Virus record (IMG/VR): IMGVR_UViG_3300032116_000734
Span: 1-34,357 of that record
Reading direction: 5' to 3' (one strand)
Origin: a virus
Length of the DNA: 34,357 bases
In this document: positions 6,604 to 28,929 of the stretch, piece after piece
Position numbering within the stretch: the first letter of the stretch is position 1
Layout: each line of letters begins with the position of its first letter
The notes under the pieces: model-generated
Database searches by the model: none
What the model was told of the DNA's origin: nothing
The model's input: only the letters and a program-made list of their open reading frames with translations
Position numbers and translations under genes: made by a program

Positions 6604-9600
6604 ATGCCGCAGACCGTGACGTACCAGTTGAGGATACGCAATGCCTCAACGCTTGCCGCACCTGATGGTCCCGACCCGGACTTTCTCGTCATCACGTCCG
6701 ATCCGGTCGGGACCAACCCGTATATCGCGGCTCCGCCGTCGGGCGATGGCGCGGAGGTGGACCCGCTGACTGGCGCGGTGCGGACGGGCGCGTATGTCGT
6801 CGAGGTGGTGGACGCGGACACGGGGACGGACGCGACCGGCACGCTTCGGGTCGTCACGAACAAGCTAGAGGACGCCACGTTCCGGCAGCAGTTGCTGTCA
6901 CGGCGGGCGTATGTGGACGTGATCCGCGCGGGCGTCTCGTCGCGGCTGGTGGCGGGTTATATCTCGTCCGTCCGGTTGATCTCCCCGATGCGGTACGCGA
7001 TCACGGTGGGCGATACGCGCCGGGTCGAGCGGACGCAGACCATCTTTCAAGGCGCGGCGTTAGGCGGCTACACCACGCGCGGGTGTATCACCGGTGGTCC
7101 GATTACGCCGGTGGACTTCGGGACGGTCAAGGCGCGGGGCGGCTGGCGCTATCTCGTCAGCAAGTCGGGCGACGATGTGACACTCACGTTCGTGGATGGC
7201 TACGAACCGGGCGCAGGCTCCCCTATTGTTAAGGACTGGCGGCAGGTGAACCGGTCCGAGATCGCGGACGTCATCGAGGGATACCGTCAGCCCAACCCGT
7301 ACGCGATCGGCGGCGGGTCCTCGTTCGTGACAAGCTACACCACGCCAGTCTTTGACTTTACGTCCGGCAGTTGGGTGGTGGCGGGCGGGGTGCAGGCGGT
7401 GGTCGGCTCGACGGCGACGAACGGCGCGGCGGTGCGCGCGTTGGTCTGCGGGTATTCGGAGGTGCCAGCGAACGAGGCGTTGGGCGTCTCCAATGTCTAC
7501 CTCTACTGGCCGTCCTGCCCGTACAGCAACGGCCAGACGGTTTTTGTCTCGCTCACGACGGTGGACGTCAACGAGACCTGCCCGCTGTACCTTGATGCCC
7601 ACCCGGTCGATCTTGTTACGGCGATCTGGACGAATGCGCGGGTCAAGTACAGCGCCTCCGCGGCCGCGACGGTCAAGACGTTGATCGGGGACACGGTGCG
7701 GCTGGCCTGTCGGTTTCCGCAGGCCCCGCTGATGGACGAGTTTCTCCAGCAGGCGATCTACGGACCGTTCGGGATTTCGGAGCGGACGAATAGCAACGGC
7801 GAGCAGGAACTGTTCCCGACGCGGATCAAGACGGACGTTCTCCCGACGCTCACGGTCAACGCGGCGGCGATGCGGGGCGCGGACGAGGTAGTGTTCGATC
7901 TGGACGAACAGACGGCGGTGTCCGGCATCCGGTTGACGCAGCAGGTGTTGAGTCCAAAGGGGTACGCGCCGGGCACGCAGACGCAGAATGGCACGAATAC
8001 CGGGACGCAGACAAGCGGGCCGCTCGACGGCATCGTGGTCTCTGAAGTCACGCAAACGGCGCAGTATCTGGACCCGAACCTTGCGGTGTTCGCGGGGCGC
8101 GTGGTGGAGTACAAAATCCCCGGCATGATCCATACCGCGGCGGACTTTGTGCCTGCCACGTCGGATCAGTTGGACGCGATCGCCATCGGCACGTTTGACC
8201 GGTTCGGGCGCGGCTGTCAAGCGGCGGAGGTGTCGGTGCTCGCAACCGCGGGCGCGGCGGCGGCGCAGATCGGGGACGAGGTGTATTTCGAGGCCCCGCA
8301 CTTCCCAAATAAGGGCTACCGGATCGGGGAGTCCACGGTCGGGGCGCGGATCATGCAGGTCGTCCGGCGGACGGAGACGCCCGCGGGGCCGGTGTTCCGG
8401 CTGTTGGATTCGGGGCTGGCGGCGCAGCCGGTATCGCCTGCGGCCACGATCACGATCGCGCAAAACCCGAACGCGCCAAGCAATACGGCGCGATTTACGA
8501 TCACGAACGCGGCGACGATAAACGCCACGAACATTTTGCAGGTGCGGGTCGAGTGGGCGGTCGGGACGACGACCCCGACGGGCAACGGGGCGGACTTCGC
8601 GTTCTACCCGGCGGGCGCGGTCCCGACGGGCGCGGTGGACTTGCCGCCGGTCACGACACCGGGCCAGACGGTCTATGTGCGGGCGCGGACGGAGCAGGCG
8701 GGGCGGAGGCCGTCGGCGTGGACCGCGTGGGCGTCCGTGGCGTTGGCAAATATCCCGACCGTTTCCAGCCTGACGAGCTCCAACCTGCGGCAGACGGCGG
8801 TCACGCTAACGTGGACGAACGGATCCTCGACGCTCCCGCTGGCGGTCTATGCGTTTCAGGGCGGATCCGCTCCGGCCAACTGGGCTCCGTATCGCGTCGG
8901 GACGCTCCCGGCGGGGACGACCTCGACGGTGGTGCGGAACCTGACGGGGCCGACGGTGCAGTGGACGCTCGGGGTGGCGTACGAGACGGCGCAGGCGGTC
9001 GGGGCGGTGACGTCCACGACGGTGACGACCAACTCGACGCTCGACACGCCGACGCGTCCGGCTGGGTTGGCGATCATACCGGGCGTCGATGACGCCACGT
9101 TGACGCAGGGGATCGCGCTGGCGTTGTGGGGATCGGACCAGACGCTCGACCTCCAGATTCAGCGGTCCACGGTGAGCGGGTCCGGGTTCGCCACCATTGC
9201 GACGGTGAGCGGGGCGACCACGGTGTATGTGGACCAGTTGCCGCGCAACGGGGTGACGTATTACTACCGGATCGCGCACGTTCTCGGCGGGTTCACGACC
9301 TCCAGCTACACGCCGGAAGTGTCGGGGACGGCGCGGGGGGTGCCGGTCAATGTGACGCGGCCCGGTGCGGTCACGCCGGTCGTGCAGGTGCAGACGTCGG
9401 AGACGGCGACGACGGGCACGGTCACGTTGACGATTACGGACCCGCAGAACCGGGTGGTGCAGGTCAGGTTCCGCGAACGGACGAACGGCGGGGCGTGGGG
9501 CGCGTGGGTCGTCGATAGCACGGTGCCGTACAGTTACACCGGCACGCTGCCCGCGACGGGGTTCCTTGACATCGAGTACGAGGTCACGGGCTTTGACGCG

Positions 9601-11463
9601 GCGGGGACGGCGGCGCAGGTATTGGCGGGCGGGATTGAGTCATTCGACACGAACACCACGCCGGACATGGTGTCCGTGGTCGGGACGTTCAACAGCGCGG
9701 GCGCGTTCACGCTGGCGATCTCGGCCGACTCCGACACGGCCTCGGTTAAGTACGCGATCAGCACGGTCAGTCAGCCCACTCTAGCGACCGTGCAGGCGCA
9801 GGCGGCGATTAACGGGCGGAACCTGACGGCGACCTTCGCGGGCCCCTATGCGAGCGGCACGACCGTCTTTGTCTCGGTCCTCGGCTACACGGGGACGAGC
9901 GGGACCGGCTCCGAATCGGCGCTCTTTGAGTACCGCTTTGTGCGCGACGGCGGGCTGGTATATTCCGAGTGCTTTGCGGCGATTACGGCGGCGACCGCCA
10001 CGCAAATCTTAGTGACGGTCACGGCGACGGCGGCGACGGGCACGCCAACGGTGCAACTGGTGGCGGTCAACGGCTCGGCAACGGTTGTGAGTGGATATCC
10101 AGCGCCCGGTATCCCGCAGCCATCAGGTACCCAATGGCTCTTTAATCGCGGTCCGGCACTCGGCGGCTCCGGGCAGGCGCAGTTTCGGGCCGTGCTGTCG
10201 GGGACGCAGAGCGACGATGATTTTATCGAGATACCGGAGCAGGGGCGGGACACGACCTATCTGACCACGCGCGCGCGCGTTAGGAATACCACCGCCACAC
10301 AGGTTTTCGTTCGCGTGGCCGTGTTGGACAAGTATTCCAATCTAACGGCTTCCATCACACAGCTTCCGTATGGTGTCCCCGGCATTACGCCAAATACCAC
10401 GCAGACGGTCACGACGGTGCAAGGTGACACGTTCCCTGCGGAGGTCGTGGGATATTACGTCGATTATACGATTGATCGACCGGCCTTTGGGGCTGGCACG
10501 GGGCGCGTTGTCTTTACGGCAACCAATGCGCAACGGGTTGCCGATTCGGACTCGGTTGATATTCCTGCCATTGAGCGTGACACCATCGCCTTAACCTCGC
10601 GCGCGCGGATCTTTTCGCAGACGGCGACGCAGATGGTGATTCGGTACGCGGTCGCCACGCCGGTTGCGCTGTCGCCCAATACGGCCAACATTACCTATGT
10701 CACCGAAGGGCTTGGGACAGTTTCCCCCGGTTCACCGGGCGTCCCACAGGCTATCACGCCTGAAACCAACACGCAAATCACGGAACCATTACTCAGCTAT
10801 ATCGACTTCACCGTGCCGCGTCCGGCGGTCGGAGCCAATCCGGGACGTATCACGTTTCAAGCCACCGCGACGAACCGCACGGCGAGCAGTGATGCGGTCG
10901 ATGTGCCGCCGCAGGAGCGGGTCGGGCCAAGCCTCAAGGTCGTGACCACGCCGGGCACGTCGAGCTATTCGCTTGAGATTACGTGGGATGGCACGATTGC
11001 TTACGCGCTGGACGGCGTGACGCAATCGGTGAGCGGCTGGACCTCGCCGCGGACGGAGACGATCACCCGCGGCGACATTGGGTCCAACACGAAGGTGGCG
11101 GCGTTTGCGGTCACGAAGGACAGCGTCACCGTCTCCGAGTCGATCAACATTCCGCCGAAGGATATTACCTCCGCCTCGCTGTCGATCGGCACGCAGACGG
11201 CGGACGATACCACGAACACGTACGAGTTCGACTGGACGGCCTCCAACTTTCCGACCGGTACAACCTACGACCTGAATTATCGAACCGTTACAACAACCGG
11301 TGACGTGGAGGAGGGCTATTATTCGGGCCTGACTACGACCGATCAGGACGTCTTGAGCGGCTATACGATCGGCCTCAACCCGACCTACCAGATGACCGTC
11401 TCGGCCGTGCTCTCGGGCGCGGTCCTGATGTCGCGCAGTCGAACCGGCACCTTCCTGACCTAA
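6604..11463 (+). CDS. Large tail-tip/host-specificity protein with repeated beta domains
   Basis: This encodes 1619 residues, the largest gene here. About the first 600 residues look like a tail hub (for example RLVAGYISSVRLISPMRYAI and a long Gly/Thr-rich middle). From about residue 620 to 1200 there is a series of fibronectin-III-like domains, recognisable by patterns such as TVYVRARTEQAGRRPSAW and VTYYYRIAHVLGG. Residues about 1215-1520 contain further tandem units ending in IP-x-x-x-RD motifs. It resembles the gpJ-type central fibre proteins that bind the host surface and follow the Dit-like gene. It ends 24 bases before a glycosyltransferase gene. Which part binds the receptor is not visible from sequence. 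Confidence 0.8.
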   Translation: MPQTVTYQLRIRNASTLAAPDGPDPDFLVITSDPVGTNPYIAAPPSGDGAEVDPLTGAVRTGAYVVEVVDADTGTDATGTLRVVTNKLEDATFRQQLLSRRAYVDVIRAGVSSRLVAGYISSVRLISPMRYAITVGDTRRVERTQTIFQGAALGGYTTRGCITGGPITPVDFGTVKARGGWRYLVSKSGDDVTLTFVDGYEPGAGSPIVKDWRQVNRSEIADVIEGYRQPNPYAIGGGSSFVTSYTTPVFDFTSGSWVVAGGVQAVVGSTATNGAAVRALVCGYSEVPANEALGVSNVYLYWPSCPYSNGQTVFVSLTTVDVNETCPLYLDAHPVDLVTAIWTNARVKYSASAAATVKTLIGDTVRLACRFPQAPLMDEFLQQAIYGPFGISERTNSNGEQELFPTRIKTDVLPTLTVNAAAMRGADEVVFDLDEQTAVSGIRLTQQVLSPKGYAPGTQTQNGTNTGTQTSGPLDGIVVSEVTQTAQYLDPNLAVFAGRVVEYKIPGMIHTAADFVPATSDQLDAIAIGTFDRFGRGCQAAEVSVLATAGAAAAQIGDEVYFEAPHFPNKGYRIGESTVGARIMQVVRRTETPAGPVFRLLDSGLAAQPVSPAATITIAQNPNAPSNTARFTITNAATINATNILQVRVEWAVGTTTPTGNGADFAFYPAGAVPTGAVDLPPVTTPGQTVYVRARTEQAGRRPSAWTAWASVALANIPTVSSLTSSNLRQTAVTLTWTNGSSTLPLAVYAFQGGSAPANWAPYRVGTLPAGTTSTVVRNLTGPTVQWTLGVAYETAQAVGAVTSTTVTTNSTLDTPTRPAGLAIIPGVDDATLTQGIALALWGSDQTLDLQIQRSTVSGSGFATIATVSGATTVYVDQLPRNGVTYYYRIAHVLGGFTTSSYTPEVSGTARGVPVNVTRPGAVTPVVQVQTSETATTGTVTLTITDPQNRVVQVRFRERTNGGAWGAWVVDSTVPYSYTGTLPATGFLDIEYEVTGFDAAGTAAQVLAGGIESFDTNTTPDMVSVVGTFNSAGAFTLAISADSDTASVKYAISTVSQPTLATVQAQAAINGRNLTATFAGPYASGTTVFVSVLGYTGTSGTGSESALFEYRFVRDGGLVYSECFAAITAATATQILVTVTATAATGTPTVQLVAVNGSATVVSGYPAPGIPQPSGTQWLFNRGPALGGSGQAQFRAVLSGTQSDDDFIEIPEQGRDTTYLTTRARVRNTTATQVFVRVAVLDKYSNLTASITQLPYGVPGITPNTTQTVTTVQGDTFPAEVVGYYVDYTIDRPAFGAGTGRVVFTATNAQRVADSDSVDIPAIERDTIALTSRARIFSQTATQMVIRYAVATPVALSPNTANITYVTEGLGTVSPGSPGVPQAITPETNTQITEPLLSYIDFTVPRPAVGANPGRITFQATATNRTASSDAVDVPPQERVGPSLKVVTTPGTSSYSLEITWDGTIAYALDGVTQSVSGWTSPRTETITRGDIGSNTKVAAFAVTKDSVTVSESINIPPKDITSASLSIGTQTADDTTNTYEFDWTASNFPTGTTYDLNYRTVTTTGDVEEGYYSGLTTTDQDVLSGYTIGLNPTYQMTVSAVLSGAVLMSRSRTGTFLT
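10250..11160 (+). repeat. Tandem beta-domain repeats inside the tail-tip gene
   Basis: Successive units of about 80-115 codons end with related sequences: FIEIPEQGRDT (near 10250), VDIPAIERDT (near 10580), VDVPPQERVG (near 10925) and INIPPKDI (near 11160). Each of the first two is followed by a similar strand start (TTRARV, TSRARI). The block suggests domain duplication within the distal part of the tail-tip protein. It also contains a short (CG)n tract at about 10268-10278. Confidence 0.65.
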
Positions 11464-11487: not shown

Positions 11488-12606
11488 ATGCGCTTGCATC
11501 TGCTCGGCATTCCCCACACGGTCACGCATCCGGCGTGGACGCATTGTGCCTTTACGCAAAAGGTCGTCAAGTTCGCCCGCATGATGCGGCCGTTCGGCTA
11601 CCACGTCACGCATTACGGCGTCGAGGGGTCAATCACGGGCGCGGACGAGGACGTCCAGTTGATGACGCAGGACGAGCATCAGGACCTGCTCGGGCACCCG
11701 TACCGGCACGATACGCGGCAGTACGGCGAGGACGCGGTAGACCAGTCGGCGGTGTATCGGCAGTGGAACCTGTACGCGCGGGAGGCGCTGCGGGACCGGC
11801 TGCAACCGGGCGACCTGATCCTCTGCCCGTTCGGGCACGCGCACGCGGCGGCGATTCGCGGGCTGGAGGCGTTGACGTCGGGCGCGGTCGGGGCGATCGA
11901 GTCGGGGATCGGGTACTACGACACGATGCTGCCGTGGCGGATCTACGAGTCCTACGCGGCGCGGCACGCGGCAATGGGGAAGGAGGGGCGGCACGGGGTG
12001 TCGCTGGAGTCCTCCCGGCTGGAGTTCGTGGTGCCGAACTACTACGACCTCGCGGACTGGCCGTTCCAGCCCAACCCGACGCCGGACGGGCCGGTGGTGT
12101 TCCTCGGGCGGTGGACGAAGGGGAAGGGCCTCGACATTGTGCGGCAGATGGCCGAGGCGCGGCCGGACGTGCCGTTCTGGTTGGCGGGGCAGGGCGACCG
12201 GGCGGCGTTGGAGGGGTGGCCGTCCAACGTGGTGGACCTCGGGGTGCTCGGCGCGGAGCGGGCGGCGGTGCTCGGGCAGGCGCGGGCGATCGTGGCCCCG
12301 AGCCGGTACGTGGAGCCGTTCGCGGGGGCGGTCGTCGAGGCGCAGTTGGTGGGGACGCCGGCGATCACGTCCGACTTCGGGGCGTTCGCGGAGACGGTGG
12401 CGCACGGGATTAGCGGGTTCCGGTGCAACACGTTGTCGCAGTTCGTGGCGGCGATCGACCGGGTGGCGGGGCTAGACCGGCGGCATATCCGGCGTCGGGC
12501 GGAGAAGTTATGGGCGCTCCCGCGGGTCGGGCGGCTGTACCATGAGGCGTTCCAAGTGGTCGGCGAACGGATCGCGGCAAAAGCGTTCCCGGCGTCCGGC
12601 TGGTAA
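11488..12606 (+). CDS. GT-B glycosyltransferase (GT4-like)
   Basis: This encodes 372 residues from ATG 11488 with GGAGG upstream. The C-terminal half has the GT-B nucleotide-sugar-binding pattern: VVFLGRWTKGKGLDIV (about 203-218), FWLAGQGDR (230-238), VDLGVLGAERAAVL and an E-x7-E motif EPFAGAVVE (E276 and E284). This is how retaining GT4-type enzymes bind the sugar donor. The N-terminal acceptor half is less conserved. The gene lies between the tail-tip gene and the lysis cassette in the late operon, so a virion tail protein or host cell-wall glycan are the obvious targets; neither is proven by sequence. Confidence 0.85.
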   Translation: MRLHLLGIPHTVTHPAWTHCAFTQKVVKFARMMRPFGYHVTHYGVEGSITGADEDVQLMTQDEHQDLLGHPYRHDTRQYGEDAVDQSAVYRQWNLYAREALRDRLQPGDLILCPFGHAHAAAIRGLEALTSGAVGAIESGIGYYDTMLPWRIYESYAARHAAMGKEGRHGVSLESSRLEFVVPNYYDLADWPFQPNPTPDGPVVFLGRWTKGKGLDIVRQMAEARPDVPFWLAGQGDRAALEGWPSNVVDLGVLGAERAAVLGQARAIVAPSRYVEPFAGAVVEAQLVGTPAITSDFGAFAETVAHGISGFRCNTLSQFVAAIDRVAGLDRRHIRRRAEKLWALPRVGRLYHEAFQVVGERIAAKAFPASGW

Positions 12607-15818: not shown

Positions 15819-16556
15819 ATGAAAACCAGCAACAGCATCGGGGCCATTGCGCCCGCACTCGTCGCCGCGGCGGCGGAGCTTCAGCCGGTGTCGAAGGACG
15901 CCACGAACCCGGCGTTCCGGAACCGCTACGCCACGCTCGACGCGATCATGGAGCAGGTCCGGCCGGTGCTCGCGCGGCACGGGCTGGCGGTCCTCCAGAC
16001 CGGCACGGCACCCGAGACGATCGACGGGCGACTGGTGGCGGTCGGGATCGAGACGATGCTCCTCCACAAGTCGGGGGAATGGATCGCCAGCAGCGTGACG
16101 TTGCCGGTCGAAAAGCTGACGGCGCAGGGGGCGGGGTCCGCGATCAGCTATGGGCGGCGGTACGGGCTATCGGCCATCCTCGGGCTGACGGCGGAGGACG
16201 ACGACGGGCAGGCGGCATCGGCTCGACCGGCGGCACTGGCGCGGCCGGAACCCCGCGCGGAGGCGGCACCGGAAGCGGGCCAGCGGCTGTATCCGGCGGT
16301 CCCCGATACGCCGCGGGCGAAGCCGTTCAGCGGGGACGTCGGGGAGGCGATGGCGTGGAAGCTGCCGTTCAAGAAGTCCAAGTTCTACAACGTGGCGTTG
16401 CAGGACATTCCCGAGAACGAGCTCGAAAAGCTGCTGGAGTTCGTGCGCCGGGACCCGGACAAGTTCCGCGACATTATTGCGCGGGTCGAGACGGTGCTGG
16501 AAGCCTTTACCGGCATGGCCGCAAACGCGGACGCGGAGGACGAGCCGCCGTTTTAA
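15819..16556 (+). CDS. ERF-family single-strand annealing protein
   Basis: This encodes 245 residues. The ERF core is clear: DATNPAFRNRYATLDAIMEQ (about 27-46) with VRPVLARHGLAVLQT, then GSAISYGRRYGLSAILG and the acidic AEDDDG (about 106-130). ERF proteins such as P22 Erf anneal complementary single strands for phage recombination and circularisation. After a disordered Pro/Ala linker (131-165) comes a helical C-terminal segment (NELEKLLEFVRRDPDKFRDI). The extreme C-terminus DAEDEPPF resembles the SSB tail that recruits host repair enzymes. No phage SSB or exonuclease of the RecE/lambda-Exo type is adjacent; a VRR-NUC nuclease lies farther down. Confidence 0.88.
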   Translation: MKTSNSIGAIAPALVAAAAELQPVSKDATNPAFRNRYATLDAIMEQVRPVLARHGLAVLQTGTAPETIDGRLVAVGIETMLLHKSGEWIASSVTLPVEKLTAQGAGSAISYGRRYGLSAILGLTAEDDDGQAASARPAALARPEPRAEAAPEAGQRLYPAVPDTPRAKPFSGDVGEAMAWKLPFKKSKFYNVALQDIPENELEKLLEFVRRDPDKFRDIIARVETVLEAFTGMAANADAEDEPPF

Positions 16557-18697: not shown

Positions 18698-19062
18698 CGG
18701 CGGCGGCGTTGGCGGAGCAGTGCGGGGATACGTTGTGGGGGTCGTCGAAGATTTGCACCAACCCGCGGCACCGGGTGGTCCTATCCACCGGACGGGTGCG
18801 CGAGTACGCCCAATGCCTCCGCTGTATGGCGCACGATCAGGGGCGGTGCTGGTCGTGCGGCAAGCCGCGCGAGGACGTCCGGCATCGGGTCTGGTTCTGC
18901 GAGACCTGCGCGGAGGCGCGGCTCAAGGACTCCAACCGGATCGCGCGGGAGAAGGCGGACGCGCGGGCGCGAAAGAACGAAATGGACCGGAAGCGGCGGG
19001 CGGAACGGAAGGCGGCGGGCCTCTGTCCGAAAACCGGACAGTCGAAGGCGGGGGCGGCGTGA
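18694..19062 (+). CDS. Zinc-ribbon-like protein with three CxxC pairs
   Basis: This encodes 122 residues. Cys pairs lie at C41/C44, C52/C55 and C69/C72 (CLRC, CWSC, CETC), with His residues nearby, and C10 and C21 upstream. This suggests one or two zinc ribbons. The C-terminal 45 residues are a strongly basic helix (NRIAREKADARARKNEMDRK), suited to DNA or RNA binding. The gene overlaps both neighbours. A nucleic-acid-binding role is plausible, and the next gene is a nuclease, but the partner is not known. Confidence 0.68.
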   Translation: MTAAALAEQCGDTLWGSSKICTNPRHRVVLSTGRVREYAQCLRCMAHDQGRCWSCGKPREDVRHRVWFCETCAEARLKDSNRIAREKADARARKNEMDRKRRAERKAAGLCPKTGQSKAGAA

Positions 19063-19526
19063 CGGGCAAGCGGCCGGTCTGGCCGATGAATAAGCCCCTC
19101 CCCGAGTGGATGACGCATGGTCGCAAGACGGCGGCGGAGCGAAAGGAGCCCCGCGCCAAGCCGCGGCATCTGGAGTCCATCGAGCAGCGGCTGTTCGTGC
19201 AGCGGGTCCGGCTCGATCCGGCGACCCGTGACCTGCCGTCGTGCGCCATCCCGAACGGGGGGCGGCGGTCCGCGCGGGAGGCGGCGTTGATGAAGGCGGA
19301 GGGCGTCACGGCGGGCGCACCGGACTGGATGCTATTCGCCCCGCGGCACGGCGCGGCCGGGTTGGCGATCGAGTTCAAGAGTCCGACCGGCACGGGTCGC
19401 CTATCGGAAGCGCAGAAAGCCTTTCACGATCGGTTGCGCGGGGAAGGCTGGCGGGTTCATATTGTCAAGACCGCGGAGGAGGGGTGGACCCTGCTCACGG
19501 CCTACCTAACGGGAGCTCCAGCATGA
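19059..19526 (+). CDS. VRR-NUC domain nuclease
   Basis: This encodes 155 residues from GTG 19059, which overlaps the previous stop as GTGA; ATG 19086 is an alternative. It carries the VRR-NUC core of the restriction-enzyme-like nuclease fold: E42 in SIEQRLFVQRV, NGGRRSAREAALMKAEG, the APDW motif with D89, E105-F-K107 in LAIEFKSPTG, and Q119 in LSEAQKAFHDRL, ending with VHIVKTAEEGW. Stand-alone VRR-NUC proteins in phages are thought to cut branched or flap DNA. Here it could resolve structures made by the ERF annealase before packaging. Confidence 0.88.
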   Translation: MTGKRPVWPMNKPLPEWMTHGRKTAAERKEPRAKPRHLESIEQRLFVQRVRLDPATRDLPSCAIPNGGRRSAREAALMKAEGVTAGAPDWMLFAPRHGAAGLAIEFKSPTGTGRLSEAQKAFHDRLRGEGWRVHIVKTAEEGWTLLTAYLTGAPA

Positions 19527-20118: not shown

Positions 20119-20697
20119 ATGACCCTGCAACGCGTTCCGGTCTCCAAGCTCCGCGCAAACCCCAAAAACCCGCGGATCATCAAGGACGAGAAGTTCCAGA
20201 AACTGGTGCAGTCCATTAAGGATTTCCCCGAAATGCTGGAGCTTCGGCCTATCGTCGTGGACGGCGACGGCGTGGTGCTGGGCGGCAATATGCGCCTCAA
20301 AGCGGCCAAGGACGCGGGGCTCAAGGACGTCCCAGTCATCCGCGCCGAGCATCTCACACCCGATCAGCAGCGCGAGTTCATCGTCAAGGACAACGTGGGG
20401 TTTGGCGAGTGGGACTGGGACGCCTTGGCGAACGATTGGCCGGCGGATGATTTGTCAGCATGGGGGCTGGACGTGCCGTTTTTGGCCGAGGGGACAACGA
20501 TGCCGGTCCTACCGGTGGCGATGGAAAAAACCATCGAACAAATGACATTCACCGTAACCGGCGAACAAGCTGACACGATTCGCGAAGCAATCACGGCGGC
20601 AATAATGGCCGGACCATTTGTCGATACGGGCAACGAAAACAACAACGGAAACGCATTGGCGCGGATCGCAGAGGTGGCTCTTGGGCAATTCCGCTAA
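20119..20697 (+). CDS. ParB/sulfiredoxin-fold protein
   Basis: This encodes 192 residues. The N-terminal 110 residues follow the ParB-N pattern: VPVSKLRANPKNPRIIKDEK, RPIVVDGDGVVLGGNMRLKA (GGN at about 55-57) and GLKDVPVIRAEHLTPDQQR. This fold binds nucleotides or DNA ends and is found in plasmid partition proteins and in phage modification systems. It is followed by WDWDALANDWPADDLSAWG, common in such phage proteins, and a C-terminal part that is AT-richer (26 of 60 G+C in 20521-20580). The adjacent gene is Mom-like; ParB-like and Mom-like genes are often paired, so a shared role in DNA modification is likely. Confidence 0.85.
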   Translation: MTLQRVPVSKLRANPKNPRIIKDEKFQKLVQSIKDFPEMLELRPIVVDGDGVVLGGNMRLKAAKDAGLKDVPVIRAEHLTPDQQREFIVKDNVGFGEWDWDALANDWPADDLSAWGLDVPFLAEGTTMPVLPVAMEKTIEQMTFTVTGEQADTIREAITAAIMAGPFVDTGNENNNGNALARIAEVALGQFR

Positions 20698-21771: not shown

Positions 21772-22367
21772 CCCTCCGCCCGCATGAAACATATTGGGAA
21801 ACCACGGCGGACCCGGCAGGGACCTTTCGCGACTGGCTGACACAATCGGACCCGTGGTCGCGGGCGGAGGTGGTCCGGATCGCGCAGGAAGTCGAGGCGC
21901 GGTCGGTCCTCGAAGCGGGACCGGGCCTGTTCGTGGACTACCAGACGCATTGGGCCTATCTGCCGGAGGTGGCCTACGAGGCGGTCGAACTGACGCCCAA
22001 ACTGGCCGCGGCCGGTCGGGCGATCGGGGCGGCGGTGCTCGATGGGTCCATCCTCGCCATCCCAAAGCCGGACAAATCCGTAGACATGGCCTATTGCCGT
22101 CATGTGCTGGAACACCTCGCGCCGGAGGACGTACCGCGGGCGCTGGCGGAGATGGTCCGGGTGGCCGAGAAGGCGGTCGTGGTGGTGTTCTTCCAGATGG
22201 CGGAGCACGGGGTGCAGGTGGTCCGAGACGAGACGGTCGCGGTCGGGACGTTCTGCAACTATTACGGGCAGCGGTACATCGAAGGACTGCTGGCCGACCT
22301 CGGGGTCGGCTGGACGGAATGGACGACGGGGGGTCGGGATTGGGTGCTCACGGCCTACCTGACGTAG
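21768..22367 (+). CDS. Class I SAM-dependent methyltransferase
   Basis: This encodes 199 residues from ATG 21768. Motif I appears as LEAGPGLFVDY (E49-A-G-P-G), followed by AYEAVELTPKL and the acidic-aromatic KSVDMAYCRHVLEHL (about residues 105-119), the layout of small-molecule or sugar methyltransferases (Methyltransf_11 type). The target is not identifiable. It overlaps both neighbours, and its C-terminal 28 bases are shared with the large terminase gene. Finding it between TerS-like and TerL genes, next to the Mom-like gene, makes a DNA- or virion-modification role worth testing. Confidence 0.75.
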   Translation: MTLRPHETYWETTADPAGTFRDWLTQSDPWSRAEVVRIAQEVEARSVLEAGPGLFVDYQTHWAYLPEVAYEAVELTPKLAAAGRAIGAAVLDGSILAIPKPDKSVDMAYCRHVLEHLAPEDVPRALAEMVRVAEKAVVVVFFQMAEHGVQVVRDETVAVGTFCNYYGQRYIEGLLADLGVGWTEWTTGGRDWVLTAYLT

Positions 22368-23602
22368 CCGCGCCGGACCCGATCCGGCTGCTCGGGGTCT
22401 ATCGGCCGTTATTCGTCGGGCGTCCCGAGTGGCGGTATGCGTTCCTGACGGGCGGGCGCGGGTCGGGGAAGTCCTTCCACTCGGCACTGTTCCTGCTCAA
22501 CCTGACGTACGAACCGGGCCACGTCATTCTGTTTACCCGGTACACAATGGTGGCGGCCGACGTGTCGATCATTCCCGAGTTTCGGGACAAGATCGAACGG
22601 CTGGGGCGGGAGGACGATTTTGAGGTCACCAAACGGGAGATCGTGAACAAACGGACCGGCTCCCGTATACTTTTTCGCGGCATCCAGACAAGTAGTGGCA
22701 ACCAAACCGCCCGCCTCAAGTCCATTCAGGGCGTGACCACTTGGGTGCTGGACGAGGCGGAGGAGTTGGTCGATGAGCGGACGTTCGACACGATCGACCT
22801 GTCGATCCGCCACAAGGCGCTGCCGAACCGGGTGATCCTCGTCCTCAACCCGACGACGACGGACCATTTCTTGCATACCCGGTTCGTGGCGACCCCGCGG
22901 CCGGATACGCTCTACATCCATACGACCTTTCGGGACAACCTGCCCAACTTGTCGCCGTCGTGGCTGGAAGCGGCGGCGAAGGTCGAGGCGACCAACCCGG
23001 AACGGTACCGGCGGATCTTCCTCGGGGAATGGGGACGGGACGCGGCGGGGCTGTTGTGGACGGGCACGGACCTCGCGCGGGTGCGGGTGGCGAACGGGCC
23101 GGAGGAGCTGTCGCGGGTGGTGGTGGCGATCGACCCGGCGGTCACGTCCCGCGCGGATTCGGACGAGACGGGCATCGTCGTGATTGGGACGGACCGGACG
23201 AAGCGGGCCTATGTGCTGGAGGATCTGTCGGGGCGGTACACGCCCGCGCAGTGGGCGACGATCGCGGTCGAGGCGGCGCGGCGGTGGAAGGGGTCTATCG
23301 TGGCGGAGGTCAATCAGGGCGGCGATCTCGTCGCGGCCACGCTCCGGTCGATCGGGCCAAAGGCGGAGGGGATCCGCATCCAAGACGTCCGGGCCAGTCG
23401 GGGGAAATACGCCCGCGCGGAGCCGGTGTACGCGCTCTATCAGGAAGGGCGGGTGTACCACGTCGGACAGTTGCCGCTACTAGAGGCGCAGATGGTCGGG
23501 TTTAACCCGGACGAGACGGACGGCTCACCCGATCGGGTGGACGCGCTAGTCTGGGGGCTGACGGCGCTGCTCTTGAATCCCGTCAACGCGTTCGTGGTCT
23601 AA
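22340..23602 (+). CDS. terL: Terminase large subunit
   Basis: This encodes about 420 residues. The start is taken as TTG 22340, preceded by GGGGGG; no ATG/GTG fits before the ATPase motif, so the N-terminus is uncertain. The ATPase half shows Walker A GGRGSGKS (38-45), an adenine-proximal TRYTMVAADVSI and Walker B WVLDEAEEL (D138, E139). The nuclease half has AIDPAVTSRADSDETG (D265 and others) and AEVNQGGD, then DRVDALVWGLTALL. It is the motor that cuts and pumps DNA into proheads, of the Terminase_3/PBSX-like type. It overlaps the methyltransferase by 28 bases and is followed by the late promoter. Confidence 0.92.
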   Translation: MGAHGLPDVAAPDPIRLLGVYRPLFVGRPEWRYAFLTGGRGSGKSFHSALFLLNLTYEPGHVILFTRYTMVAADVSIIPEFRDKIERLGREDDFEVTKREIVNKRTGSRILFRGIQTSSGNQTARLKSIQGVTTWVLDEAEELVDERTFDTIDLSIRHKALPNRVILVLNPTTTDHFLHTRFVATPRPDTLYIHTTFRDNLPNLSPSWLEAAAKVEATNPERYRRIFLGEWGRDAAGLLWTGTDLARVRVANGPEELSRVVVAIDPAVTSRADSDETGIVVIGTDRTKRAYVLEDLSGRYTPAQWATIAVEAARRWKGSIVAEVNQGGDLVAATLRSIGPKAEGIRIQDVRASRGKYARAEPVYALYQEGRVYHVGQLPLLEAQMVGFNPDETDGSPDRVDALVWGLTALLLNPVNAFVV

Positions 23603-23711: not shown

Positions 23712-26700
23712 GTGTCCGAAAGGGCCAGTCAGTCCGTAGTGCAGCGGCTCGCCCGCGCGTGGCAGATCGTCCGGGGACGCGACGAAGGCCGCGCGATTAT
23801 CGGGACGACCTATCCCAACTTTCCCGGCGTGGCCGGTGGCGGGTCCCTTTCCTTAGTGCGGACCGCCAATCCGCAGGAGTTCAAGCCGGAAGGCGCGACG
23901 GTCCGCGCCGAAGGGTTCTCCCGGCATCCGGTCGTTCACGCCTGCATTCGGGTCGTGGCGGACATTGTGGCGTCGGTGCCGTTGGTCGTGCTGCGCGAGC
24001 GCGGCAACTCGGAATCAAAGGTCGGTGAGGACCACCCGCTCCAGCGGTTGCTCGACTATCCCGGCCCGCGCTTCACGGCGCGGCAGTTCCGCGCAAAGTT
24101 CGCGGTCGATTTCCTCGGGTACGGCAACTCGTTCACGCAGATTGAACGGCAGGGTGGGCAGGGTCGGCCCGTCGGCCTGCGGGCGATCAACGCCGAGAGC
24201 ATCCAATCCGTTTGGGTGGACGCGGAAGGCGACCCGCGGCGGTACGATTACGGCAACTGGTCGGGGATCATCGTGCAGGTGCCGGTCGAGGACATTCTGC
24301 ATTTCCGTGACCTCGATATGTCGCGGCCGTTTCAGCCGGAGTGCTTTGGCTTTCCGCGCGGGGCGACGGCGATCGCCAGCATTGCGGCGGACAACGAGGC
24401 GACGAAGTACGTCCGGCAGGTCGTGACGAACGACGGCACGCCGACTTTCGCCGTGCTGCTGGCGGACGAGGCCACGCAGGACGACGCGCAGGCGATGCAG
24501 TCGCGGTATGTGGCGCGGACGGTGGACCGTGGCAAGCGGGGGACGCCCGCGTTCTTTGGCGCGGTGCGCGACATCAAACCGCTCGGGTTCACGCTGTCCG
24601 ACCTAGAGTTCCCTGACCTCCGGCGGGTGTCGCGTGAGGACATTTGCGCGGCGTTTGGGGTGGATCCGCGCATGATCGGGATCGCGTCGGCCACGTCGGA
24701 CGCGGGGTTGTCCGGTGCCCAATACGCGGAGGCGCGGGCGCGACTGGTCCAGCATACCATCGAGCCGATGTTTTCGGCATTCGAGGACGAGCTGAACCAC
24801 TGGCTCGCGCCCGAGTTCGGCGACGTCTGGATCACCTACGACCACGATATGCTCCGCGATCTCGTCGAGAATGACGCGGAGACGTCGGAGCGGGTACGGG
24901 CGGAGTTCAAGGATTCGCTGCGGACGTGGGAAGAGGCGCGGCGGGCGCTCAAGCTGCCGCCGGTCCCGATCCCGACTGATACGTTGGCGATGACGACGGG
25001 CACGCAGTTGGTCCCGGCGGCGGTCGCGGTGATCGACCCAACGGCGGTCATGGACGAACCGCCCGCGACGGACAACGAGACGCCCGCCGTGGGTCCGGGT
25101 CCGCAGGAAACGGAAGCGGACGCGGAGACGATCGACGTCGAGGAGAATGAGGACGGGCTGGCGGACGAGCAGGGCCGCGCGGCGTCCGACGTGACCAACT
25201 TCCCGGCACGGGGCGACAATAAGACGGTCAGTCTCCGGAACTCGGGGTTCAAGGTGTTCCCGGTCGCGGAGGCGGAGGCGCTGAAGGCAAACTACCCGTC
25301 TGTCTGGCGCAAAGGCGGCAACATTCGCGGCAATAAGCAGTTCACGCTGCTCCGACCGGTCGCCAAGCGCGGCGGGAAGGTGGACGGGCTGTCGGAGGAG
25401 AACGCGGTCCGTCGGCGCGAGGCGTGGGCGGCGCGGCACCGGAAGGATTTCCAGTTGGCGGGCGTGGTCGCGCAGGTCAAGTGGCTGGTGGTCGGGGACC
25501 GCGGCCTTGACCATATGCGGGCGGTGCTGGCGGACGCGAAGGCCAAAGCGGACAACCGCAAGCGGTCGCTCGGGTCGCATGTGCGGACGTTCGCGGAGGA
25601 CGCGCTGTCCGGCGATCAGATCGAGGCGCTGATGGAACTGCTGGAGGCGGTCGTCGAGGGGGAACTCCCGATTGCGACGGTCGAGGGCATCATCCTTGCG
25701 GCGTTCCCGAAGCTCGACGCGGACGCGGTGTCAGCGATGCTCGACGGGCTAGAAGGGTTCGCGCCGGAGGACGAGGACGAGCCGGAGGAGCCTGAAGCGC
25801 CAGAGATGCCGAAGGACGAGGAGCCGGAGAACGGCGAAGCGCCCGAGCCGATGGGCGAGATGGCTGCGATGGACGAGCAGCGGCCGTGGTGGGTGCATGT
25901 GCCGCCAGAGGACCGGCCGTGGTGGGTGGAGATGGCCGAGGCGGGGACGCTGCAAGACGAGCCGCGGTTCCAGTACTGGCAGCGGGCAATGGACGAGCTC
26001 GACCGGGAAGAGGGCGAATACTACACCACGGCGCGGGGGCAGTTTGCGGCGGACGCGCAGAGCATTGCGTTGCTGTTCGCGCAGTATGCCAAAGAAGCGG
26101 CGACGGCGACGGACGCGCGGAAGGCGCAACTGCTGCAAACCATTGACCGGTTGATTCGGACCAACTACCAGAAAAACGGCGAGTATTACCGCGCGTGGAA
26201 AGCGGCGTTTGAGGCGTTGATAGGCCAGACGTATATGGTCGGGGCTCGACAGGTGGCGGGTCTGAACCTATCGTTTACGCTCCAGTCGCCGGAAGTCTTG
26301 ATGGCGATTGACGAACGGACGGCGCAACTGGCCGAGTGGATCGGCGAGGACACCGCCAAGCAGGTCACGGCGGCGATTCGCGCGGCGGAGAAAGCCGGAT
26401 TCTCGGTCGAGGAGACGGCACGGCTCGTCCAGTCGTCGGTGTACGGTGAAAACCTCACGGATGTGCGAGCGACCCGCATCGCGCGGACGGAAGCGGCGCA
26501 CGCGATGTCGCGCGGCAGTTGGGATCAGGCGATCGAGCTCGGCATCTATCAGTCGAAGGAATGGCTCTCGTTTGAGGATTCCAAGACGCGAACCACGCAT
26601 CGCCAGTACGGCGGCTCGCCGGTTGTGCCAATGGACTACCGGTACGGCAAGATGCTGTATCCCCTCGACCCGTCCGGGGGTCCGGCGGAGACGATCAACT

Positions 26701-26753
26701 GCCGCTGTACATTGGTGTTCTATACTGAACCAGCATCCGAGGCCACTCCATGA
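23712..26753 (+). CDS. Portal protein fused to an insert domain and a MuF-like head protein
   Basis: This encodes 1013 residues from GTG 23712 (GGGGGCG ahead). Residues about 1-430 are an HK97-type portal (HPVVHACIRVVADIVASVPL; DRGKRGTPAFFGAV; CAAFGVDPRMIGIAS). An acidic linker (to about 500) leads to a domain at about 510-620 with SGFKVFPVAEAEALKANYPS, WRKGGNIRGNKQFTLLRPV and a charged helical half. A second acidic Pro-rich linker lies at about 686-714. The C-terminal 200 residues are MuF-like: RATRIARTEAAHAMSRGSWD (about 919), TTHRQYGG and the final NCRC (996-999). Portal and MuF are normally separate genes. The frame is open throughout, so this is a true fusion and not a reading error that is visible. 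Confidence 0.88.
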   Translation: MSERASQSVVQRLARAWQIVRGRDEGRAIIGTTYPNFPGVAGGGSLSLVRTANPQEFKPEGATVRAEGFSRHPVVHACIRVVADIVASVPLVVLRERGNSESKVGEDHPLQRLLDYPGPRFTARQFRAKFAVDFLGYGNSFTQIERQGGQGRPVGLRAINAESIQSVWVDAEGDPRRYDYGNWSGIIVQVPVEDILHFRDLDMSRPFQPECFGFPRGATAIASIAADNEATKYVRQVVTNDGTPTFAVLLADEATQDDAQAMQSRYVARTVDRGKRGTPAFFGAVRDIKPLGFTLSDLEFPDLRRVSREDICAAFGVDPRMIGIASATSDAGLSGAQYAEARARLVQHTIEPMFSAFEDELNHWLAPEFGDVWITYDHDMLRDLVENDAETSERVRAEFKDSLRTWEEARRALKLPPVPIPTDTLAMTTGTQLVPAAVAVIDPTAVMDEPPATDNETPAVGPGPQETEADAETIDVEENEDGLADEQGRAASDVTNFPARGDNKTVSLRNSGFKVFPVAEAEALKANYPSVWRKGGNIRGNKQFTLLRPVAKRGGKVDGLSEENAVRRREAWAARHRKDFQLAGVVAQVKWLVVGDRGLDHMRAVLADAKAKADNRKRSLGSHVRTFAEDALSGDQIEALMELLEAVVEGELPIATVEGIILAAFPKLDADAVSAMLDGLEGFAPEDEDEPEEPEAPEMPKDEEPENGEAPEPMGEMAAMDEQRPWWVHVPPEDRPWWVEMAEAGTLQDEPRFQYWQRAMDELDREEGEYYTTARGQFAADAQSIALLFAQYAKEAATATDARKAQLLQTIDRLIRTNYQKNGEYYRAWKAAFEALIGQTYMVGARQVAGLNLSFTLQSPEVLMAIDERTAQLAEWIGEDTAKQVTAAIRAAEKAGFSVEETARLVQSSVYGENLTDVRATRIARTEAAHAMSRGSWDQAIELGIYQSKEWLSFEDSKTRTTHRQYGGSPVVPMDYRYGKMLYPLDPSGGPAETINCRCTLVFYTEPASEATP

Positions 26754-27571
26754 GCACCGCCACGATCCGGCCTCCCCTTCGGCCGGTCCAATATATCACG
26801 TCCGAGGTCTCGCTTTCGATCCGCGCGGAAGGCGACCTGCCGCCGGGGATCGCGGGGCGGGTGTCGGGCGTGGCGCTAACGTACGAGGTGGTCGATAGCT
26901 ACCAGACCATCTTTGCTCGCGGCTGCGCGAAGCGGTCCATCGACAACAAGGTCAAGGCGCGGAAGGTCCCGCTGCTGATGGACCATAGCCGGACGGTCGG
27001 GGCGCATGTCGGCGTGGTCGCGTCGATGGTCGATTCGGGCGACCAGTTGATTATGACGGCCGACCTGTTCGACACGCCGGAGGGTCGGGCGGCGCTGGAG
27101 TATGTCAAGACGGTGATCGCGGCGGGGGCCTCGACGGGGTTCTCGATCGGGTTTGTGCCGCGCCGGTCTGATATGGTCATGATGGACGCGAAGCCGGTCG
27201 AGAAGTTCCTCGAAATCGAGCTGCGCGAGGTCTCGCTTACCCCGATGCCTGCGGTGCCCGGTGCTGATGTGACGGGCGCACGGGCGGAGGAGGCCGAGCC
27301 ACAGGAATCCGCTCCCGTCCGGCCGGACGTGGAGCTGTTGGAGACGGCGGCGATCGTCGCGCTGGAGGCGATGGACGCCTCCACTCGCGCGGCCGTGCTC
27401 TCCCGCTACCAACAGCCTGCCTCGACGGCGACCACGACCGCGGCGCGATGCTGCGCTCCCGTGATCCGTGAGCCGGTAGACGCGGTAGCTACGATGGACG
27501 CCCGCGTACAGGCGGTGCGGTCCACGTTCGCAGTCCCAGCAACGACTACCCATTCTTTGAGGAATCCATGA
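26750..27571 (+). CDS. HK97-family prohead protease
   Basis: This encodes 273 residues, overlapping the portal-MuF stop as ATGA. It has the herpesvirus-protease-like fold pattern: GVALTYEVVDSYQTIFARG, the catalytic His in LLMDHSRTVG (H79), DLFDTPEGRAALEYV and the catalytic Ser in GASTGFSIGF (S128), then ELREVSLTPMPAVPGA. It processes the capsid scaffold region during head maturation. The C-terminal 100 residues are acidic then Ala/Thr-rich and probably flexible, as in self-digesting proteases. The capsid gene follows with an ATGA overlap. Confidence 0.92.
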   Translation: MSTATIRPPLRPVQYITSEVSLSIRAEGDLPPGIAGRVSGVALTYEVVDSYQTIFARGCAKRSIDNKVKARKVPLLMDHSRTVGAHVGVVASMVDSGDQLIMTADLFDTPEGRAALEYVKTVIAAGASTGFSIGFVPRRSDMVMMDAKPVEKFLEIELREVSLTPMPAVPGADVTGARAEEAEPQESAPVRPDVELLETAAIVALEAMDASTRAAVLSRYQQPASTATTTAARCCAPVIREPVDAVATMDARVQAVRSTFAVPATTTHSLRNP

Positions 27572-28929
27572 AAACCCCACTGGTAAGCAAGAACCGGCAG
27601 GCGAACGAGCTGCGAGAGCAGGCGCACAAGCTCCGCCATGACCTGATGGACCCGGCCAACAGCTACACGGCCGAGCAGGTCGAGAAGCTGACGAACGACA
27701 TCCGGGCGCTGGAGATGCGGGCGCAGGCGGCGGCGGAGTTCACGCCGGACGCGGAAGTCGATCGGCAGGGCGGCGATGCGGGCTTCACCCGCATGGATGT
27801 GGGAGCGAAGAAGGACGTCGAGTCCTTCCGCACGATGCAGGACGTGTCGCAGGAGGTGCGGACCACGCTGGTCAAGGCGTTCCCGTCGATGGGGGCCTAT
27901 ATCCGCGCGGCGACCCGCGGTCCGGCCACGCCGGTTGAGGCGGACGCGCTCCGCATGGTGGACCAGTACACCCGGACGATCACCGGCTCGACGAACGGCG
28001 GCGAGTTCCTGCTCCCGCTCACGCAGGTGCCTGAAATCTTCTCGGTGAGCAACCAGCAGCCGGGTCTGTTCCAGTATGCCCGCCGGTACAATGTGCCGGG
28101 CCGGTCGCTCCGCATCCCGTACCTCGTACAGGATGAGGGCACCTCGACCCTCAACCGTCCGATGGCCGGTAAGATTGCCAACGTGACGATCGTTGGCGAA
28201 GGCTCGACCAAGCCGGAGCGCGAGCCGACGTTCGGTCAGCGGCTGCTGACGATGTACAAGTATGCGGCCGTGACGCAGTTCGGTGACGAACTGCTCGGCG
28301 ACGACTTCACGGGCGAACTGCCGGGTGAGGTGACGACGGCGGTCGGCGGGCAGATCGTGAACAAGATGAATGAGGACATCACGATCGACGGCAACGGGTC
28401 CTCGCAGCCGCTCGGGGCGCTGAACAACAGCAACTCGGCGCTGATCGCGGTCAACCGGGCGACGGCCAGCACGTTCTCGGCGGCGGACGCGTTCAACATG
28501 TACGAGCGCCACACGCACGGCCCGAACTCGGTCTGGATGATCTCCCGCCGGGTGCTTTCCAAGCTGTTCGCACTCCAGACCACCAACAACACGATGGTGA
28601 CGTGGATTGCGAACCTGCGCGACAAGCCGCAGATGCTGCTCCTCGGGCTGCCGGTCATCGTGACCGACCTGCTCCCGACGCTCGGCACGAAGGGCGATGT
28701 CGCGCTGGTGAACGGCGACTTCTACGCGATGGGCCTCCGGCAGGCGCTGACGGTGGAGTCGTCCATCCACTTCGCCTTCACGGCGGACGTGACGACCTAC
28801 CGGTTCGTGGCGCGTGGCGGCGGTATCCCCCTCCCGACCTCGACCTACGCCTACAAGGTGGACGGCTCGGGGAACAAGGTGGACCCGCACAGCCCGTTCG
28901 TGGTCCTCGATGTCCCGGCCTCGTCGTAA
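27568..28929 (+). CDS. Major capsid protein (HK97 fold)
   Basis: This encodes 453 residues. The first 85 or so form a charged coiled coil (ANELREQAHKLRHDLMDPAN; AEQVEKLTNDIRALEMR), the scaffold-like delta domain expected to be removed by the protease. The mature part follows the HK97 pattern with GSTNGGEFLLPLTQVPEIFS, a beta-rich E-loop region, DELLGDDFTGELPGEVT, GSSQPLGALNNSNSAL, PNSVWMISRRVLSKLFAL and VIVTDLLPTLGTKGDVALVN. It is somewhat longer than HK97 gp5. Codon choice here is the most regular in the window, in line with high expression. A glycosyltransferase gene follows immediately. Confidence 0.93.
   Translation: MKTPLVSKNRQANELREQAHKLRHDLMDPANSYTAEQVEKLTNDIRALEMRAQAAAEFTPDAEVDRQGGDAGFTRMDVGAKKDVESFRTMQDVSQEVRTTLVKAFPSMGAYIRAATRGPATPVEADALRMVDQYTRTITGSTNGGEFLLPLTQVPEIFSVSNQQPGLFQYARRYNVPGRSLRIPYLVQDEGTSTLNRPMAGKIANVTIVGEGSTKPEREPTFGQRLLTMYKYAAVTQFGDELLGDDFTGELPGEVTTAVGGQIVNKMNEDITIDGNGSSQPLGALNNSNSALIAVNRATASTFSAADAFNMYERHTHGPNSVWMISRRVLSKLFALQTTNNTMVTWIANLRDKPQMLLLGLPVIVTDLLPTLGTKGDVALVNGDFYAMGLRQALTVESSIHFAFTADVTTYRFVARGGGIPLPTSTYAYKVDGSGNKVDPHSPFVVLDVPASS

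Follow-up and report, generated by a model that had tools for sequence, protein, structure and literature searches.

A six-helix domain in a portal–MuF fusion protein and other head proteins of phages, an exchanged module that may be packaged into the head

The window analyzed here, meaning the whole stretch of 34,357 nucleotides of the IMG/VR virus record IMGVR_UViG_3300032116_000734, carries on its plus strand a gene (23,712–26,753; GTG start, no internal stop) that encodes portal, insert, and MuF domains in a single protein of 1013 residues. This fusion gene is placed between the gene for the terminase large subunit (21,794–23,602; phrog_979, E 6e-38; start codon uncertain) and the genes for an S78 prohead protease (26,750–27,571; PF04586, E 7e-11), which starts at an ATG overlapping the fusion stop codon, and the major capsid protein (27,568–28,929; TIGR01554, E 1.7e-35), all on the plus strand. 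Both the single open frame, at exactly these coordinates, and the protease encoded next to it had been recognized in the original prediction. Upstream of the terminase gene, the window encodes an ERF-type recombinase (15,819–16,556), a VRR-NUC nuclease (18,720–19,526), and a ParB-like protein (20,119–20,697). A frame of 1619 residues after the tape measure gene (6,604–11,463) has no Pfam match and is probably a tail protein, and a glycosyltransferase (11,488–12,606; PF13692, E 1e-14) follows the tail genes.

The portal domain spans residues 65–412 (23,904–24,947, plus strand, as for all parts of the gene). It is matched by PF04860 at residues 73–411 (E 2e-49, 168.9 bits against a cut-off of 39.1) and by TIGR01537, portal_HK97 (116.2 bits, cut-off 112.05); phmmer retrieves the HK97 portal 8cez (E 1.6e-16), and Foldseek the portal chains of GTA and HK97 (E about 1e-13, TM normalized to the target about 0.60, from a part of the model with moderate confidence). 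The MuF domain at residues 737–1008 (25,920–26,735) is supported by PF04233 at residues 884–1001 (E 1.6e-9, 38.9 bits against a cut-off of 29.6) and phrog_2468 (E 9e-31), with TIGR01641 (30.9 bits) below its cut-off of 39.65. Two acidic linkers separate these domains, as the original prediction had it. Linker 1 (residues 413–494; 24,948–25,193) has 17 Asp or Glu against one Lys or Arg over residues 441–494 and a pLDDT below 50 over residues 412–493; linker 2 (residues 684–736; 25,761–25,919) has 16 against three over residues 691–740 and is disordered in the model at residues 685–721.

Between the linkers lie a six-helix domain, referred to here as the insert (residues 495–617; 25,194–25,562), delimited by the structure model and by its lack at this point in relatives, and an acidic helical hairpin (residues 634–683; 25,611–25,760), whose order relative to the insert differs among relatives. 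An additional domain without an assigned role had been proposed at about residues 510–620; a folded domain is indeed predicted there, its limits shifting to nearer 495–617. AlphaFold models the full protein as beads on a string, consisting of portal, disorder, insert (about residues 500–612, with helices starting at residue 518), hairpin, disorder, and MuF (from residue 737), and given the low overall pTM the model makes no prediction of how these domains are placed relative to each other.

An assembly error joining two genes was considered and ruled out. Contigs from other samples contain the fusion frame with 100% identity to the window, in full length (L002 and L003) or from residue 397 on (L004), and in diverged relatives (portal 82–86%, MuF 54–73% identical) an uninterrupted frame likewise runs from portal to MuF; together these exclude a chance event or misassembly, and neither of the findings that had been named as fatal to the original prediction, such an error or a stop between the parts in relatives, was encountered.

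The joining of portal and MuF had been regarded as unusual, which does not hold. MuF is fused to the portal in the Microbacterium phage subclusters EA3, EA5, and EA8 and in cluster EB, and joined to the protease in cluster EG (PMC7302621); both families also match the portal genes of Streptomyces phage OnionKnight (gp3, 768 aa), Bacillus phage Silence (700 aa), and Geobacillus phage GBK2 (685 aa). These phages share with the window an HK97-type portal followed by MuF, encoded between terminase and capsid genes, so that the fusion itself is an ordinary feature already on record, and the new part is the insert: the known fusions that were checked are shorter (685–768 aa against 1013) and have a linker without the six-helix domain. 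In phage SPP1, the MuF protein gp7 is drawn into the procapsid by the portal protein gp6, assembly proceeds without gp7, but efficient infection requires it, the infectious share of gp7-less virions being only about 25% (PMC6316719); one to two MuF copies are present per capsid (PMC5576092), against the twelve that the uncut fusion protein would give on a dodecameric portal. The window shares with this system the link of MuF to the portal, which in SPP1 places few copies of MuF inside the procapsid (PMC6316719), but in the window this link is covalent, so that every portal subunit would bring one MuF with it if the protein is not cut.

The insert belongs to an uncharacterized, unnamed domain family. 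AF2, run from 31 sequences, predicts six helices that fold on their own (mean pLDDT 90.6). No family in Pfam, PHROGs, or NCBIfam and no PDB sequence matched it, and no PDB fold stood out (best Foldseek E 1.4); the best VIA-align hit, a viral sulfhydryl oxidase (Z 8.0, rmsd 4.2), is within the range expected by chance for helical models. Foldseek does match two viral predicted structures, A0A516KXP4 and A0A516KVY3, by homology. Kinship with the prohead protease of HSTV-2 was dismissed, as the Foldseek hit is weak (E 7.6) and has no sequence support. Eighteen positions are invariant among 32 sequences; they are mostly polar and clustered in the sequence as GGNxxGN, REAWxARH, and AQxKW. The insert of the window has a pI of 11.2, but net charge spans −20 to +15 across the family, for which reason a basic DNA-binding domain was dropped as a general explanation. 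Composition gives no sign of recently acquired foreign DNA, with a GC3 of 0.886 for the insert resembling that of the portal (0.856).

The family proved to be common in viral sequences from the environment. A first viral scan gave 52 loci with an insert, and each of three further scans of IMG/VR gave more than 500 confirmed stretches, these being lower bounds. Among cultured phages, the insert was found only in those of Salinibacter, in 183 Salinibacter ruber M8 records. One member, in gene 27 of Salinibacter phage 12_10 (L014:3518-6124), is strongly acidic, as expected of a halophile, and stands together with DUF5824 and a part that by eye is protease-like in an 852-aa protein annotated as hypothetical. 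Plasmids gave no match, nor did a first scan of cellular genome contigs; in a second cellular scan, which covered 84,980 species genomes, two MAG contigs matched, which by reading encode one insert–protease and one portal–insert protein and are thus probably viral. On a Verrucomicrobiales MAG contig (L263:3345-5105), a portal frame is followed by an extra module and then by an insert whose frame is broken early in the domain. All 21 contigs with a match that were inspected over their entire length (8–93 kb) carry a single copy of the insert.

With carriers labeled by profiles built in this analysis, and by Pfam on examples, 100 of 129 distinct inserts are in one frame with a portal, MuF, or protease domain and 23 more adjoin such a gene. 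The arrangements include solo inserts, DUF5824–insert (at times with another N-terminal domain), insert–protease, protease–insert, insert–MuF, portal–insert–MuF, and portal–DUF5824–insert. The insert precedes the protease in L066, L060, and L214 and follows it in L244 and L260; a protease fusion is also found in L256, and fusions ahead of MuF in L118, L133, and L213. Within the portal–MuF linker it can lie on either side of the helical hairpin (L016 compared with L020 and L028). In L066 and L060, the portal–MuF fusion has no insert and the neighboring protease has one. A stand-alone form, sought as suggested in the original prediction, does occur: a separate gene of about 130 aa, having a start codon to itself, lies between those for portal and protease (L178:3821-4222, 132 aa; L184; L153). 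DUF5824 (PF19141), a small uncharacterized domain for which a literature search found no paper mentioning it, is found in the same head proteins, often directly beside the insert; a relationship between the two was rejected by profile comparison (hhalign probability 0.2%). In Roseobacter phage CRP-831, DUF5824 is encoded inside a gene annotated as major capsid protein (PV211014.1, 25860-26147), so that in a cultured phage, too, this domain accompanies a head protein.

Phylogenetic analysis of the insert (126 columns) requires at least 15 changes of partner; many forks of this tree are not resolved, and the starred branches alone force several. The strongest sign of exchange is that closely similar inserts can be accompanied by portals that are almost unrelated, with 75% identity between inserts and 21% between portals for L060 and L082, and 75% and 22% for L131 and L169; for L066 and L068, the values are 78% and 46%. 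Similarity of the insert was the criterion by which loci entered this comparison, and this cuts off low insert identities; only pairs of high insert identity with unrelated portals were therefore used as evidence, and not medians. The contrast is hard to attribute to slow evolution alone, since in close relatives of the window insert identity (65–73%) is lower than portal identity (79–84%). Four lineages whose portals are 82–86% identical to that of the window (L005, L010, L011, and L012) have no insert at the same point, about 145 aa being missing there in an 82%-identical relative, and no copy was found along the full 40.9 kb of the L006 contig or the full 37.2 kb of that of L012, indicating that the insert is dispensable, although IMG/VR contigs may be fragments and an absence outside the head module is to be read accordingly. 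Taken together, the near-unrelated portals with 75% identical inserts and the four lineages without one identify the insert, on sequence comparison, as an accessory module, present once per contig, that is exchanged horizontally.

Portal, MuF, and prohead protease are all located inside the procapsid in SPP1 and HK97-type phages. All carriers would thus be expected there, at the portal vertex or close to it, and joining the insert to one of them is probably a way to bring it into the head, whichever carrier is used. Published surveys infer that other domains joined to MuF, portal, or prohead protease are packaged and injected (PMC5512222, PMC9503650); domains of the NudE type, thought to be packaged and injected, use MuF, portal, and the capsid-processing peptidase as carriers (PMC9503650). 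The insert family shares with these MuF-linked effectors and polyvalent proteins (PMC5576092, PMC5512222, PMC9503650) an accessory domain attached to MuF, to the portal, or to the capsid-processing peptidase, and the presumed packaging into the head. The window protein differs in that its extra domain is N-terminal to MuF and matches no known effector or toxin domain; C-terminally no toxin family was found, with MuF reaching residue 1001 (Pfam) or 1008 (model) of 1013.

Since it is indifferent to its carrier, can be missing from close relatives, and passes between unrelated phages, the insert behaves as an accessory passenger of the head, and this behavior together with the published surveys leads us to rank a packaged factor first among the possible roles, an adaptor within the head second, and an enzyme or ligand-binding module third. 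Judged from sequence and models, the packaged factor, which the protease may release and which may leave the head with the DNA, has a probability of roughly 0.45. The insert would be packaged as a minor internal factor, in 12 copies if the portal ring is dodecameric; the prohead protease would then cut the exposed linkers and free the insert from its carrier, and the freed insert would leave with the DNA and act early in infection. Twelve copies, a cut in the acidic linkers, and ejection had each been suggested as possibilities in the original prediction. That ejection is the purpose of the packaging falls somewhat short of an even chance, and only tentatively would we extend this to a widespread phage factor that enters heads on whichever internal head protein is at hand, is released there by the maturation protease, and is delivered with the DNA to a target common to many hosts. 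Effectors attached to MuF are usually C-terminal to it and diversifying. The insert is N-terminal to MuF and highly conserved, which speaks against a packaged factor of this kind, and as long as the insert remains on the portal, ejection is impossible; linker 1 of L005, moreover, lacks the acidic character, and a conserved site for the protease is thus not apparent.

The insert could instead do its work inside the head and never be ejected, as an adaptor of the procapsid by which portal, MuF, and protease (or scaffold) are brought together at the portal vertex during assembly, or as an organizer of DNA at that site. We consider this possible, though not probable. Every carrier is an assembly partner, and the use of the portal–MuF protein in some phages and of the protease in others (L066, L060, L214, L256) suggests a functional link between them; a single copy with strongly conserved residues would fit such a role, as would an insert placed between a protease-like part and a scaffold-looking coiled coil, seen by eye in L100 and L119. 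A coevolved contact with the portal, however, sits poorly with near-alike inserts beside unrelated portals, its absence from close relatives, where it is dispensable, speaks against an assembly role, and a general binding of DNA through basic charge is not conserved in the family. The polar, clustered invariant residues would also suit an enzyme or ligand-binding module located in the head and acting on packaged DNA or nucleotides; this is unlikely, as no enzyme was matched, by fold or by sequence, more closely than chance allows. An intein, or a different self-splicing or homing element that would be gone from the mature portal–MuF protein, might be suspected because relatives without the insert at the same point resemble an empty intein site. 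Such an element is highly improbable and was rejected, since the model is all-helical and not a beta HINT fold, the N terminus reads TNFP without a splicing Cys or Ser, and the insert is also encoded by genes of its own and forms the N-terminal part of some proteases.

The free exchange of the insert between solo genes and those for portal, MuF, and protease points to the proteins that phages may use as carriers into the head, and the phages of S. ruber M8 offer a cultured system in which to decide between ejection and assembly. The linker domain defines an unnamed family that abounds in phages from the environment but is almost missing from those in culture. For annotation, the insert accounts for the length of portal proteins near 1000 aa and provides a profile for a domain missed by the libraries used here. 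Further modules accompany it at some loci. The proteins in which the insert lies between the protease-like N-terminal part and the long coiled coil (L100:3173-4960 and L119:2942-4960) gave no Pfam or PHROG family match, and two solo inserts (L091:3932-4624 and L129:3923-4495) end in a short C-terminal cysteine motif, NPCWDGYxxxGLKPNGDPxCxPxK, which constitutes another small uncharacterized module.
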